The position numbers and the translations under genes are program-made. Positions 1,930 through 24,003 of a DNA stretch of 24,116 nt are shown in pieces (the first letter of the stretch is position 1; each line of letters starts with the position of its first letter). A model generated the notes under the pieces. It was not told the DNA's origin, ran no database searches, and saw only the letters and a program-made list of their open reading frames with translations. This DNA is from a virus. The stretch spans positions 1-24,116 of the IMG/VR virus record IMGVR_UViG_3300038701_000465; one strand, given 5' to 3'.

Positions 1930-2427
1930 TTACCGGTTAGACAGATGCTCGGTTAGAATCTTGTAAAGGTCGGATTTCAGAGCCTTTTTATCGTACTCGA
2001 CCCCGGGACAACGGTCCAAAAGGTCGACGATATCGACTTTATTATAGTCGTCCTCAGACTTTAGCTCGAAATCGTCCGGAATCAGATTAACCTCCTCCTT
2101 TTCGGTTTCCTCTAACTGAGACTCCTCGGCTTTCTCCTCCTCCTTTTCGGTTTCCTCTACCTGAGACTCCTCGGCTTTCTCCTCCTCCTTTTCAGATTCG
2201 GACGCCTTAGAGCTTTCATTTTTAGAACCCTGTTTCTTAGCCTTGGCCTTTTTAGGCTTAGGCTCCTCGATAGGCTCGATAAAAACGTTATGCGGCTCTT
2301 TCATTAAATCCGAGGCCGGGACCGGTAATTGGTCCTCCGTTACAATGTCTCCGGATTTATATAGCTTTTTCCCTTTTCCTGTAAGGTGTAAAGCGATAAC
2401 CTTGTATTTTCTAACGCTGTCTCCCAT
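1930..2427 (-). CDS. Acidic virion protein in the lambda FI position, with C-terminal HeH/LEM-like segment (165 aa)
   Basis: Three parts are visible. Residues 1-55 are a small beta-type domain (YKVIALHLTGKGKKLY, then NVFIEPIEEP). Residues about 56-110 are low-complexity and highly charged, starting Lys-rich (KPKKAKAKK) and then carrying two copies of a Glu-rich 15-residue repeat (EKEEEKAEESQVEET). Residues 122-165 (DDYNKVDIVDLLDRCPG, then EYDKKALKSDLYKILTEHL) resemble the helix-extended-helix/LEM/SAP class of small domains found in phage head proteins and in nucleic-acid-binding proteins. It directly follows the capsid gene, the position of lambda FI, which assists terminase docking. I infer a head-associated or packaging-accessory role. 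It is the last gene before an intrinsic terminator. Confidence 0.8.
   Translation of the reverse strand: MGDSVRKYKVIALHLTGKGKKLYKSGDIVTEDQLPVPASDLMKEPHNVFIEPIEEPKPKKAKAKKQGSKNESSKASESEKEEEKAEESQVEETEKEEEKAEESQLEETEKEEVNLIPDDFELKSEDDYNKVDIVDLLDRCPGVEYDKKALKSDLYKILTEHLSNR
2091..2194 (-). repeat. 45-bp in-frame direct repeat in the acidic linker
   Basis: Two adjacent 45-bp units (2091-2135 and 2136-2180) differ at one base as read by eye (codons for L versus V). A third partial copy follows to about 2194. The unit encodes 15 Glu/Lys-rich residues and keeps the frame, so linker length can vary by slippage. The unit length equals that of the collagen repeat, but the sequences are unrelated. Confidence 0.9.
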
Positions 2428-5097: not shown

Positions 5098-5304
5098 ATG
5101 AAAAAGAAAACATCGAACGAGCCCGGGACCGACGAGAACGGTCTAACTTACATAATGATAAAGGGCGTAACTCCGGGACTTAAGAAAGACTTTAAGACCG
5201 TCGTAAAAAACCAAGGGAAAACGTTTTCCTCCGTGTTAAGGAAGTTTCTACGGGAATACGTGGACAACGCGGACGAGGCACATAAAACGCCGCTCGACGA
5301 TTAG
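5098..5304 (+). CDS. Ribbon-helix-helix (CopG/Arc-type) DNA-binding protein (68 aa)
   Basis: One of two plus-strand genes in the window. Residues 16-23 (LTYIMIKG) make the DNA-contacting beta strand, 25-39 (PGLKKDFKTVVKNQG) helix A and 41-57 (TFSSVLRKFLREYVDNA region) helix B, the layout of RHH repressors, which dimerise and place the paired strands in the major groove. The start at 5098 is preferred because Met20 would cut the strand. The -7 box ends 5 bases upstream, so the message is probably leaderless. The gene runs tail-to-tail into the portal gene and the two stops overlap (5301-5304). With no terminator between them, its transcript would be antisense to portal. A phage regulator acting on the repeated operators or promoters nearby is likely; the target is unknown. 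Confidence 0.85.
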   Translation: MKKKTSNEPGTDENGLTYIMIKGVTPGLKKDFKTVVKNQGKTFSSVLRKFLREYVDNADEAHKTPLDD

Positions 5305-18358: not shown

Positions 18359-19408
18359 ATGAAAGTTAATCCATCAGATTTTCTAAAGGAGCTCTCGTTC
18401 CTTTCAAAAGTAGTTAACCCGAAATCGACTCTCCCTATTTGTCGAGCGGTCCTTTTCTCGGACGGAGAGCTAAGAACTACAGACCTCGACCGGACTATAA
18501 TAATCCGGAGAGAATGTAGTTTCGAGGCCGCGGTAAATATCCGGACGCTCCGGAATGTGATTTCCGCCCTTAAGGACCTCGAATGTATTACAATAACCAG
18601 AGCCGGAGAGACGACGATAAAAGTCGTTAGCGACCTCGGGACGACCATTATCGGCGGATTTGAACCCCGGGAATTTCCAAAGGTTCCGGAATACGATTTA
18701 ACGAATTACGCCGAGAGCTTAGATAGTGAAGTCCTCCGACGAGCGAATAAGTTTTCCGGGAAAGACGGGCTCCGGCCCGTTATGTCCGGGGTGTTTTTAG
18801 GAGAGGATATCGTAGCGACGGACGCGCGTATCCTTTTCAGAACTAAAAACAAAGCGAAACTAAAGGAGGGAGAGTCCGGAATAGTTATTCCGCGGACAAT
18901 TATTCCGCTACTTAAAGGAGAGGTCGATATCCAGACCTCGACGGACGACGCTTTCGGAAAGTGTGATCTCCCGGGCGGAATCTCTGTATATTGGAGAAAT
19001 ATCGACGGACGTTATCCAAATTACGCGGCGGTTATCCCGGATATCGTTTCGGCCCAAGTCGTCGCGACTCTGGATAAGAGACAGTTTTTAGCAATGGTTA
19101 ACAGCGGTTTAGCCGTATGTAACAAAACAACCCATAAAGGAGAGCTAAGATTTACAGAAAAAGAGTCTTTTGAGCTCCGGGTCGATAACGATTTCGACGT
19201 TTCTAATTTTTACTCTGGAAAATTACCGGCTAAATACCGAACAAAGATTCCAGAAAAAGGAATCGTTATCGGGTTTAACCTGAGGTTTTTAAAGGCCGTT
19301 ATTTCCAATACTAAGGACGCGGACGTTACTTTCTATCTGTTCGAACCTAATAAGGGCGGAATTATTAACGAGGAGTTTCTAATTATGCCTGTAATGTTGA
19401 ACAATTGA
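18359..19408 (+). CDS. dnaN: DNA polymerase sliding clamp, DnaN-like (349 aa)
   Basis: A three-domain beta clamp by pattern. Domain I has LSKVVNPKSTLPICRAVLF and LRTTDLDRTIIIR (12-50). Domain II has GLRPVMSGVFLGEDIVATDARIL (137-159) and the hallmark RNIDGRYPNYAAVIPD (213-228). Domain III has FNLRFLKAVIS (306-316) and the C-terminal LIMPVMLNN, equivalent to MPMR at the end of bacterial clamps, which lines the partner-binding cleft. Bacterial clamps are about 366 aa. The clamp ring tethers the polymerase to DNA. Its placement next to tail genes, opposite in strand, with a promoter element shared with the head genes, is unusual. GCA/TGC is as rare here as in neighbouring genes, so it is not a recent host gene capture. 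A role in late transcription, as for T4 gp45, is speculative. Confidence 0.9.
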   Translation: MKVNPSDFLKELSFLSKVVNPKSTLPICRAVLFSDGELRTTDLDRTIIIRRECSFEAAVNIRTLRNVISALKDLECITITRAGETTIKVVSDLGTTIIGGFEPREFPKVPEYDLTNYAESLDSEVLRRANKFSGKDGLRPVMSGVFLGEDIVATDARILFRTKNKAKLKEGESGIVIPRTIIPLLKGEVDIQTSTDDAFGKCDLPGGISVYWRNIDGRYPNYAAVIPDIVSAQVVATLDKRQFLAMVNSGLAVCNKTTHKGELRFTEKESFELRVDNDFDVSNFYSGKLPAKYRTKIPEKGIVIGFNLRFLKAVISNTKDADVTFYLFEPNKGGIINEEFLIMPVMLNN

Positions 19409-21024: not shown

Positions 21025-23031
21025 TTACGATTTACTCGTAATTAAGTCGACCCAATCAGCCCAAACGAACCCGGGCCGCTTTAACTGTTTCCCGATTATT
21101 GATAACAGAATCTCCCGGAGAGCAATATTATAAACCCGGACGTCGAAAAAGTGATTTTGTACGGCGGAGTTTTTCTTTTTCCATTTCATCCCGACGCCGA
21201 CGCCTGAGGCGTCCTTATGTACGACCCGGTGTTCGGCCTCGAATTGGATATAAAAGCCGCTGTAAGTGTATTTCCCGGCCTCCGGCGTTGGGAAATTCAT
21301 AAACCCGGTCGGCTGAGTCTCGTCGAACTGAGGCGAATAACTGAGAGACATTAACGCGGCTAATTGGTCCTTTATTAGATCAACCTCCAAAATATAGAGC
21401 TTTTTCCGGGTCCGGGACGGTTTAAATATAGGGAGGTCGCCGCCGAATTTAGTATATCCGGTTTTCGCGTCTCCCTTAAGGCCGACGACATTGTGAGGAG
21501 TCTCGTCGATATAACGATAAGCGTGTTTCGCAAAATGCCCCGGAGCGTCTATTCCGGCTATAGCGACGCGCATTTTACGACCGTTATCCTTTATCCATAC
21601 CTGAGATATCAACTCGTCCAGAACAGGCCAAACGGACCGGGCTCGATTATGTTCGTAAGTCCATTTCTCCCGGTCTGTTTCTGTTTTCTCTTTTGGAACA
21701 AACGTTCCGATAGAGCCTTGGTCGACCGAGTAGGTCGCTCCGGATTCCGACCAAGCTAAAACCTCCCAATCGACCCGAGCGTCCTCCTCTTTTCCGTTAA
21801 GGTCGACGGCCAAGGTCAAAAGAACTATAGTTCCGTTACCGTCCTCTATAGACAGAGCCTCCGGAATAGTTCCCGGGGCGTAATTTCTCGTATTCCGCTG
21901 TAATTGATTAGCCGAGGTCTCGGTCCCTTTTTCCTCGTAAGGCAATCCGAGGCAAAGGTTATAAAAGGCTTTCATTTCGTCCTCCTTTTCCTTTCCTCCG
22001 GGCGGAGCCGCCTCTAAATACTGTTGTACGTAATGAGTCCAATCGGACATACCGACCGGGGCGTAAAGGGCGGATAAGTGATAACTCCGATACTCTGGAT
22101 TCTTAGGGATAGCGGTCGGAATCCAACGCCCGGCGGAAAGGAGTTCCGTTTTATTCGTGTCGTCGAAAAAGTCGCCGCACTTATAACAGACGTAACCGAC
22201 GGAGTCGCGGATTAAAACTCCCCTATCGTCGAGCTCCCAATATATCCCGGCCATAACGTCCGGTCTGGACTCCATAGGTCGCTCCCAATCTAAGACTATC
22301 ATATCTCCACAACAAGGGCAAGGGATATGATATTTTCTCTGATCTCCCATAACGTAAGCCGGATAGATATTACTCGTCTCCATTAGCTCCGGGGTCGATA
22401 TATAAAAAATCTTCTTTTTAGACTCGTAAGCGGCGAACCGCTGTTCTATCATTTTCCGAGTATTCCCGGCCTCTTTTGTTGCGGATTTTGCGGCGTCGAA
22501 ATCGTCGATGAATCCGTACATCATAGACCGTTGACGGAGGAGCTTATGATTTCCGGCGGACCCGGCGATTAACTGTCCGCCGGCGAACTCCTTAGACTTG
22601 TTCGTATCTCCGGACCTTGTTTTCCGGGCGCGTTGGGCGGAGGCTTTGATTAAATGTCTAATCCCGGTATTGTCGATTAGATTGTCGATTTTACCGGTTA
22701 CGGCCTCCTCCGCTAAATCTGAATGTCCCGTAAGAAATAGAATATTTCCGGGAGCCTCCGCTATAATCCAACCGATACCGGCCTCGATAACCCCGGTACT
22801 AAATCCGACTTGTGCTCCTTTCATTATCGAGATAACCTTACAAGGGACGGACTGAGACAAACAGTCGACGACCTCCCTTAGATACGGCGTATATTTGTAC
22901 GTAAACGGACCGGGCCTCGGAGATACCTCCGTAGTCATAACGCGATTTTTCTCGTTCCAATCCGAGGGACTGATATCCGAGAGGAGGACTTTTCCGGCGG
23001 AAAATATGTTCGAAATCTGTCCCGAATACAT
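21025..23031 (-). CDS. Terminase large subunit, GpA family (668 aa)
   Basis: Lambda GpA-type packaging ATPase/nuclease. The ATPase part has a Walker-A variant KGAQVGFST (71-79), a Walker-B segment FIDDFDA (174-180) and the coupling segment FYISTPELMETS (209-220). A Zn-ribbon-like insertion follows: CPCC at 238-241 and CYKC at 282-285. The nuclease part starts near TLAVDLNG (Asp410) and includes GIDAPGHFAKHAYRY (Asp495). Length is close to lambda gpA (641). It cuts concatemers and pumps DNA into the prohead through the portal. Its ATG directly abuts the stop of the ubiquitin-like gene (TAAATG). Just after its stop lies the operator/promoter of the accessory cassette. Confidence 0.95.
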   Translation of the reverse strand: MYSGQISNIFSAGKVLLSDISPSDWNEKNRVMTTEVSPRPGPFTYKYTPYLREVVDCLSQSVPCKVISIMKGAQVGFSTGVIEAGIGWIIAEAPGNILFLTGHSDLAEEAVTGKIDNLIDNTGIRHLIKASAQRARKTRSGDTNKSKEFAGGQLIAGSAGNHKLLRQRSMMYGFIDDFDAAKSATKEAGNTRKMIEQRFAAYESKKKIFYISTPELMETSNIYPAYVMGDQRKYHIPCPCCGDMIVLDWERPMESRPDVMAGIYWELDDRGVLIRDSVGYVCYKCGDFFDDTNKTELLSAGRWIPTAIPKNPEYRSYHLSALYAPVGMSDWTHYVQQYLEAAPPGGKEKEDEMKAFYNLCLGLPYEEKGTETSANQLQRNTRNYAPGTIPEALSIEDGNGTIVLLTLAVDLNGKEEDARVDWEVLAWSESGATYSVDQGSIGTFVPKEKTETDREKWTYEHNRARSVWPVLDELISQVWIKDNGRKMRVAIAGIDAPGHFAKHAYRYIDETPHNVVGLKGDAKTGYTKFGGDLPIFKPSRTRKKLYILEVDLIKDQLAALMSLSYSPQFDETQPTGFMNFPTPEAGKYTYSGFYIQFEAEHRVVHKDASGVGVGMKWKKKNSAVQNHFFDVRVYNIALREILLSIIGKQLKRPGFVWADWVDLITSKS

Positions 23032-23310
23032 TTACTCCGAGTCTATTTTAGCACAATGGATAAACATTCCGTCGAACTTTTCGACCGAATCCTCCGGGGT
23101 TAGAACTCTGGACCTCCGCCCGGTGTATTCCGAACCGTCAATCGTTACCAGATAACTAAAGTCGGAAAGGTCCGCCGGGGTCTTTGGAAAGGCTTTTCGG
23201 ACGATTTGTTCGTAAGATATGCTCGGTCCGTCAAATTCTACAGAGACTCCGTTAAGGTTAACTCGGTAGAATTGAGAGTCCTCGTCTTTCATTGTGTGAT
23301 GGATTCCCAT
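23032..23310 (-). CDS. Ubiquitin-like beta-grasp protein (multiubiquitin/DUF2604-like, 92 aa)
   Basis: Residues 13-92 follow the pattern of bacterial multiubiquitin-type domains. There is strand FYRVNLNG, strand VSVEFDGPS, the signature helix ISYEQIVRKAFP (31-42), strand YLVTIDG, and the closing TPEDSVEKFDGMFIHCAKID (family form roughly 'G.SV.VKDGM.F.V..TD'). This assignment is by remembered family pattern. There is one domain only and no C-terminal Gly-Gly; it ends IDSE. An alternative start at Met7 (23292) would still leave the domain intact. It lies 3 bases after terS and abuts terL, an unusual place for such a protein. No E1, E2 or JAB-type peptidase gene is visible in the window. It might be a packaging accessory, or a decoy against host ubiquitin-like anti-phage conjugation. 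Neither role is shown. Confidence 0.65.
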   Translation of the reverse strand: MGIHHTMKDEDSQFYRVNLNGVSVEFDGPSISYEQIVRKAFPKTPADLSDFSYLVTIDGSEYTGRRSRVLTPEDSVEKFDGMFIHCAKIDSE

Positions 23311-23313
23311 AAT

Positions 23314-24003
23314 TTACGCTCTACGTTGACCGACGCCGCGTTTATTCGCGTAATCAGTGGAAATTCTATCGACCGCTCGATGTGATTCGTCGACGGCTTT
23401 TTCGACCGCCTCGTTAGTGATTGAAACTATTTTCGTCCGTAACTCCGCCTCGGATTCGCTGTCGATTTTGTGTTTATGAGCGAACTCGGTTAAAAGATTG
23501 TCCGCGGCGGAGCGGAAACTCGACGTTATAGCCATAGCAAACTGAGCGATTATCGGAGACATTAGCTCGGTCGGAATTATTTCTCCCTGTTCCTTTTGGA
23601 TTTTCAAGAGGTTAAGGTCCCGGACCGTTTCGATTCTCTGGATATCGGCGGCTATTTTCCTGTTTTCGAGAGAGAGAATCCCTCCGGACTGTTGGATAAT
23701 CTTGTCGATATCGTCGTCCGTCGCGTCTTTTAGGTCTGGAATATCTGTAATCGGGAGCTCCGGGTCTGATATTTTCGGACCCGGCGGCCTTGGAACCTCC
23801 GCGGTCGAGCCTTTCTCAGCGGCGGAGGCGGCTTTTTTAACTAACAGTTTCGAGCGTTTCCGAACAAATTCCGCGTTTATCGGGTGTGAATCGTCGATAA
23901 GCTCTCCGGACATAACGACCTTTCCCCTCTTAATGTAGTTCGTGAGGTTCCCGGTTTTCATTCCCATTTCCCGGGCAAAGTCCGATTTAGTATAAAAAGC
24001 CAT
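23314..24003 (-). CDS. Terminase small subunit (GpNu1-like, 229 aa)
   Basis: Position just before terL, an N-terminal helix-turn-helix and a helical C-terminal region support this call. FYTKSDFAREMGMKTGNLTNYIKRG (residues 3-27) is a winged-HTH-like DNA-recognition segment. Residues 65-95 are a Pro-rich linker. Residues 108-160 (LENRKIAADIQRIETVRDLN, then LLKIQKEQGEIIPTEL) make the long coiled helix and 'G.liPTe.v' turn common to Nu1-type small subunits. The final section is an oligomerisation helix bundle and ends in a basic tail (RGVGQRRA). It binds the packaging site and recruits terL. A TAGCTTTG box ends 4 bases before its ATG, so the message may be leaderless. Confidence 0.85.
   Translation of the reverse strand: MAFYTKSDFAREMGMKTGNLTNYIKRGKVVMSGELIDDSHPINAEFVRKRSKLLVKKAASAAEKGSTAEVPRPPGPKISDPELPITDIPDLKDATDDDIDKIIQQSGGILSLENRKIAADIQRIETVRDLNLLKIQKEQGEIIPTELMSPIIAQFAMAITSSFRSAADNLLTEFAHKHKIDSESEAELRTKIVSITNEAVEKAVDESHRAVDRISTDYANKRGVGQRRA

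Follow-up and report, generated by a model that had tools for sequence, protein, structure and literature searches.

The phage contig analysed here carries, between the genes for the small and large terminase subunits, a gene (ubl) that encodes a variant of a known modifier family: an orphan BubA-family protein with an altered tail, placed in a phage cargo slot. The whole contig, hereafter called the window, is a virus contig of 24,116 bases that is classified as linear and possibly a fragment, and at least half of the phage genome lies outside it. According to the ORF listing, coding is almost entirely on the minus strand, and the gene content is that of a contractile-tail phage (terminase, tape measure, baseplate J, portal, protease, decoration protein, and a major capsid protein of family E). 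The region around ubl is organized as follows:

21025..23031, minus strand: terL, GpA-type terminase large subunit, 668 aa (Pfam and PHROGs)
23032..23310, minus strand: ubl, predicted single-domain beta-grasp protein of the Multi_ubiq/BubA type, 92 aa (PF14452, AF2, Foldseek)
23035..23046, minus strand: codons of the C-terminal ubl tail, I-D-S-E (alignment with the tails of bacterial relatives)
23314..24003, minus strand: terS-like terminase small subunit, 229 aa (phrog_57, 1.6e-9; phrog_5193, 1.8e-12)

The ubl ORF begins with an ATG at 23310 and ends with a TAA at 23032-23034, but translation might alternatively start from an internal ATG, that of residue 7. A plus-strand reading of 23032-23310 is not the gene, as the ubl ORF is on the minus strand. 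Three nucleotides separate the terS stop codon from the ubl ATG, and the ubl stop codon is followed by the terL ATG with no spacing at all (0 nt). Thus, both the location of a 92-aa ORF between the two terminase genes and its tight coupling to them, as given in a preliminary description made from the sequence alone, were borne out. TerL matches GpA_ATPase (PF05876, 8e-53), GpA_nuclease (PF20454, 3.1e-42) and phrog_15 (3.8e-138). The GC content of ubl (0.47; GC3 0.53) resembles that of its neighbours, and hence there is no sign of a very recent acquisition. The phage gene is known from this one sequence only.

Almost no gene in the window is preceded by a Shine-Dalgarno motif and the leaders are A/T-rich, which is a trait of Bacteroidota. 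The best annotated terminase relatives are found in Cellulophaga and Flavobacterium phages. Based on these two observations, the host of the phage probably is a member of the Bacteroidota. Elsewhere in the window, a DNA sliding-clamp-like protein (18359-19408, plus strand; phrog_947 1.5e-28, weak DNA_pol3_beta match) is encoded by a single plus-strand gene within the minus-strand late region. A small plus-strand ORF at 5098-5304, convergent with the portal gene, has a weak ribbon-helix-helix match below the cut-off (PF19839), and a 165-aa protein containing Glu-rich, near-identical repeats (EEEKAEESQVEETEKEEEKAEESQLEETEKEE) is encoded next to the major capsid gene (1930-2427, minus strand).

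Family assignment and predicted fold

In Pfam, Ubl matched Multi_ubiq (PF14452) with an E-value of 1.4e-6 and 28.8 bits (curated cut-off 24.5), and a six-frame search of the window recovered this family with 28.2 bits. The match spans positions 1-55 of the 69 profile positions and does not cover the C-terminal end of the domain. Profile searches could also have assigned the protein to an unrelated terminase-accessory family, but Multi_ubiq was the sole Pfam match at E ≤ 1. When a profile built from bacterial relatives was used, Ubl scored 18.9 bits, whereas the highest score among 5,000 shuffles that preserve its composition was 8.2 bits, and Ubl was the only good match among the 432 stop-to-stop frames of the window.

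AlphaFold2 (AF2) predicted a beta-grasp model of the order EE-H-EEE (pLDDT 78.5, pTM 0.64) from an alignment of 45 rows, Ubl and 44 bacterial relatives, whose BubA domains may imprint the BubA fold on the model; the Pfam match is independent of this alignment. In a Foldseek search of the PDB, the best match to this model was the bacterial multi-ubiquitin protein 9cd2 (E 8.6e-5, query TM 0.70), and further multi-ubiquitin and BubA chains were among the top matches. The beta-grasp fold anticipated in the preliminary description is thus reproduced by structure prediction. Its family assignment held for multiubiquitin and failed for DUF2604, to which no Pfam match was obtained at E ≤ 1. Searching Ubl against the PDB by phmmer yielded chance matches to RNA polymerase and tags only, the fold search of BFVD with the Ubl model gave no match at E ≤ 0.001, and PADLOC returned no match. 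A tail assembly protein I of the lambda TAPI type, which is ubiquitin-like, was ruled out: neither Pfam nor PHROGs contained a match to this family at E ≤ 1, and the gene sits in the terminase pair.

Some of these data would also be compatible with a protein that is not ubiquitin-like and resembles the family by chance, since its identity to the bacterial members is just 12-26%, the alignment-based model leans on BubA sequences, and the model obtained from the single sequence is poor by itself (pLDDT 51). However, the curated Pfam cut-off is passed, the shuffled controls score far lower, and even the single-sequence model retains the order EE-H-EE-E. A chance match was rejected on these grounds and is extremely improbable; judged by profiles and models, Ubl almost certainly is a member of the ubiquitin-like family with a beta-grasp fold.

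Orphan status, C-terminus and ubiquitin-like proteins of other phages

Of the 67 bacterial loci that one search with a BubA-type query returned, all have an E1-like gene beside the relative and 64 have a DUF6527-like gene there. Rhizobial plasmids have the same layout, with genes annotated as multiubiquitin, ThiF and DUF6527. In contrast, no E1, E2 or JAB protein was detected in the window ORFs scanned (no E1-like match at E ≤ 1), DUF6527 is missing from the window, and ThiF was found neither in the six frames of the window nor in 19 related phage records. Partner enzymes could be encoded elsewhere, because the contig covers at most half of the phage genome. Ubl also lacks a C-terminal Gly-Gly and ends in I-D-S-E, as opposed to the T-(G/D/N)-x-S of its bacterial relatives, where Ser is the last residue in all 72 distinct C-termini and Thr occupies position -4 in 68 of these. 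The absence of partner genes from the window and of the Gly-Gly motif had both been noted correctly in the preliminary description.

Conservation reaches 85% or more of the bacterial set at 22 alignment columns, of which 14 are hydrophobic and eight are Gly or polar. Ubl has a hydrophobic residue at 12 of the former, but is identical at only one of the latter, for which bacterial sequences reach seven to eight, partly by construction because they define the columns. The positions that Ubl has lost are 60, 68, 73, 77, 79, 89 and 92. This pattern suggests that the fold was kept, whereas the original enzyme-facing features may have been given up.

The BubA/multi-ubiquitin proteins of Bub operons (PF14452; PDB 9cd2, 9d5a, 8u38, and 9ea8, which is BubA in complex with the Bub E1) are among the closest known systems. 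Ubl resembles them in its family profile, predicted beta-grasp fold, domain length and conserved hydrophobic core, but has neither an E1 or DUF6527 neighbour nor a terminal Ser, is changed at seven of the eight conserved Gly/polar positions, and is encoded in a phage packaging operon. With BilA, the ISG15-like modifier of the Bil anti-phage systems, it shares the ubiquitin fold and the bacterial-phage setting. BilA consists of two ubiquitin-like domains, carries a reactive Gly at its processed C-terminus and has BilB-D as partners (PMC11354881), whereas Ubl has one domain of 92 aa, the tail IDSE without Gly, and no partners.

Ubl might nonetheless be a real modifier, in which case enzymes of the host, or enzymes encoded by the phage outside the contig, would process it and attach it to virion or host proteins. 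Its family comprises conjugated modifiers, and the phage LR756511.1 (595 kb) possesses a Multi_ubiq protein plus a ThiF and JAB cassette elsewhere in its genome. The I-D-S-E tail in place of the otherwise invariably Ser-ending motif, the missing Gly-Gly, and the lack of E1, DUF6527 and ThiF in the window and of ThiF in the 19 related records argue against this scenario, which we regard as improbable. Ubl is probably not a working modifier. The altered C-terminus also makes the virion substrate that had been proposed before less likely, and the conjugated tag was rejected in view of the tail, the missing Gly-Gly and the lack of partner genes in the window.

LR756511.1 was the one weak real match in direct tblastn searches of phage and plasmid collections with the 92-aa protein, and the only match to Ubl in the annotated phage collection; the plasmid matches were rpoC fragments. 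Its Multi_ubiq protein (71.8-72.0 kb) scores 24.6 bits, just over the cut-off, and is the best pairwise match to Ubl among the domains compared. Like Ubl it is phage-encoded and has a tail without terminal Ser (TGDA), but it is longer at the N-terminus by about 70 residues, which include a CxxC motif, and retains five of the eight Gly/polar columns, and no terminase gene is evident in the 10 kb surrounding its gene. At about 280-282 kb of the same record (L205:1414-3339), a ThiF gene (E 6.8e-32) adjoins a Prok-JAB gene (8.2e-8), a cassette that the window lacks. This pair is not adjacent to the Multi_ubiq gene but about 209 kb away from it, and pieces of a ubiquitin-like system are thus scattered over one phage genome.

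IMG/VR scans with Ubl or its alignments revealed nothing beyond a Bub operon at a contig edge (L091/L203) and a contig of 512 kb (L204). In the former case, a BubA-type gene like those of bacteria, with a product that ends in GES, is located at the extreme edge of a 67.7-kb viral-classed contig (L091:5971-6222), with helix-turn-helix and ImmA-like genes upstream. The latter, viral-classed contig (IMGVR_UViG_3300028654_000001) encodes a stand-alone Multi_ubiq-like protein of 76 aa that ends in TSGA and keeps six of the eight Gly/polar columns (L204:5986-6216); it may be bacterial, because its GpA-like match is weak and genes for a transposase and a response regulator are present on it. Both other ubiquitin-like proteins of large phage-classed contigs, those of LR756511.1 and L204, also lack the terminal Ser.

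The terS-terL junction in related phages

IMG/VR was scanned twice with terminase alignments; one scan provided 80 loci, and 49 loci that were new in the other were examined as well. The terS-ubl-terL synteny, whose occurrence in other phages had been raised in the preliminary description, was found at none of these about 130 related TerL loci. Their ORFs gave no match above noise to the ubiquitin-like profile, and Multi_ubiq was likewise found in none of the six frames of 91 related phage records. At 111 related loci, a set that was not dereplicated and includes near-identical contigs, terS was located upstream of terL by a terS profile; here the gap between both genes is shorter than 60 nt in 74 cases, at least 150 nt in 33 and intermediate in four.

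About a third of the relatives carry other inserts at this junction. These share the genomic slot with ubl, but belong to families unrelated to it and to each other (SEC-C, N6 and D12 adenine methyltransferases, C5 cytosine methyltransferase, DUF4406, and others). Three DNA methyltransferase types occupy the gap upstream of terL at the loci L017, L019 and L053. ORFs between terS and terL also occur in Cellulophaga phage phi38:2 and Flavobacterium phage FCL-2, where they have no ubiquitin-like match. In the closest relative, a 45-kb contig (L212) whose TerL is 65% identical to that of the window, the ORF preceding terL is 41% identical to the window's TerS over 231 columns, and terS and terL overlap by 4 nt with nothing in between. 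Because ubl is absent from the sampled relatives and their gap is either empty or filled with unrelated genes, the junction is an optional insertion slot, and ubl is very likely optional cargo at this site. The junction may even be a general counter-defence hotspot of this phage group.

The association of ubl with the terminase is accordingly positional and not conserved across relatives. Ubl might still serve as a small ubiquitin-fold adaptor on TerS or TerL that tunes genome packaging: its close spacing within the terS-terL pair implies co-transcription and probably co-translation, and its base composition is like that of the operon. This function is unlikely, however, given that no sampled relative has ubl, that terS and terL overlap in the nearest one, and that unrelated genes fill the slot in others. 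A terminase cofactor with a conserved tie to the packaging genes, one of the roles suggested initially, was rejected for the same reasons.

Proposed role of Ubl and alternatives

As the best explanation overall, we tentatively propose that Ubl is an orphan BubA-family cargo protein that is not conjugated, is made late and antagonizes a ubiquitin-like pathway of the host. The bacterial BubA-family (Multi_ubiq) fold would have been put to new use in a contractile-tail phage whose terS-terL junction received the gene as optional cargo, and the protein would be produced late, alongside the packaging proteins. Rather than being attached to other proteins, it would bind non-covalently. We consider such non-covalent action likely, because Ubl has lost the C-terminal motif as well as the conserved Gly/Lys positions but retains its hydrophobic core.

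The target conceivably is a host ubiquitin-like conjugation pathway of the Bub or Bil type, which a non-conjugable Ubl could block by antagonizing the E1/E2 enzymes, the protease or the modifier itself. This pathway would be the most economical target, because the family consists of such modifiers, Bacteroidota carry them (Multi_ubiq is present in 22 of 395 sampled genomes), and Bil is reported to act on phage assembly. Bil reportedly conjugates a ubiquitin-like protein and interferes with phage assembly in this way (Hor et al. 2024, cited in PMC13373217), an activity that would fit late expression of ubl. What speaks against this target is that, according to the citing source, protection against phage is not shown for Bub operons (PMC13373217). 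The more specific scenario that a BubA-type protein was captured by the phage and deprived of its conjugation tail, and now serves counter-defence by inhibiting the ubiquitin-like conjugation of the host in a dominant-negative manner, is less probable and on balance doubtful. A simple E1 decoy would be awkward to reconcile with the sequence, since the E1-binding surface should then be kept, whereas most of the conserved non-core positions, which may include E1 contacts, are lost. A decoy or inhibitor of host ubiquitin-like defence was also among the roles suggested initially, and may still apply.

Alternatively, Ubl might share the fold alone and function in counter-defence or host takeover by binding a target unrelated to ubiquitin-like pathways. 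Retention of the core with loss of seven of the eight conserved Gly/polar positions is expected after a change of partner, and DNA methyltransferases, often anti-restriction genes, are among the inserts that fill the slot in relatives. Yet no particular target is indicated and Ubl still scores above the curated Multi_ubiq cut-off, and we therefore deem such a binder rather unlikely. Still less probable is a decaying or neutral cargo gene with no current function. The loss of family-specific positions and the patchy distribution would fit decay, but the ORF is intact, tightly spaced on both sides and has kept 12 of the 14 hydrophobic core positions, which leaves this option little room.

Ubiquitin-like pathways of bacteria joined the list of anti-phage immune systems only recently, and no description of a phage inhibitor of these pathways was found in the searchable literature. 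A phage-borne orphan of the modifier family whose tail is altered, as proposed here for Ubl, is a concrete and cheap candidate for such an inhibitor. If the dominant-negative reading were true, Ubl would represent phage counter-defence against bacterial ubiquitin-like immunity. Furthermore, the terS-terL junction of this phage group is a cargo slot where more counter-defence genes may turn up.
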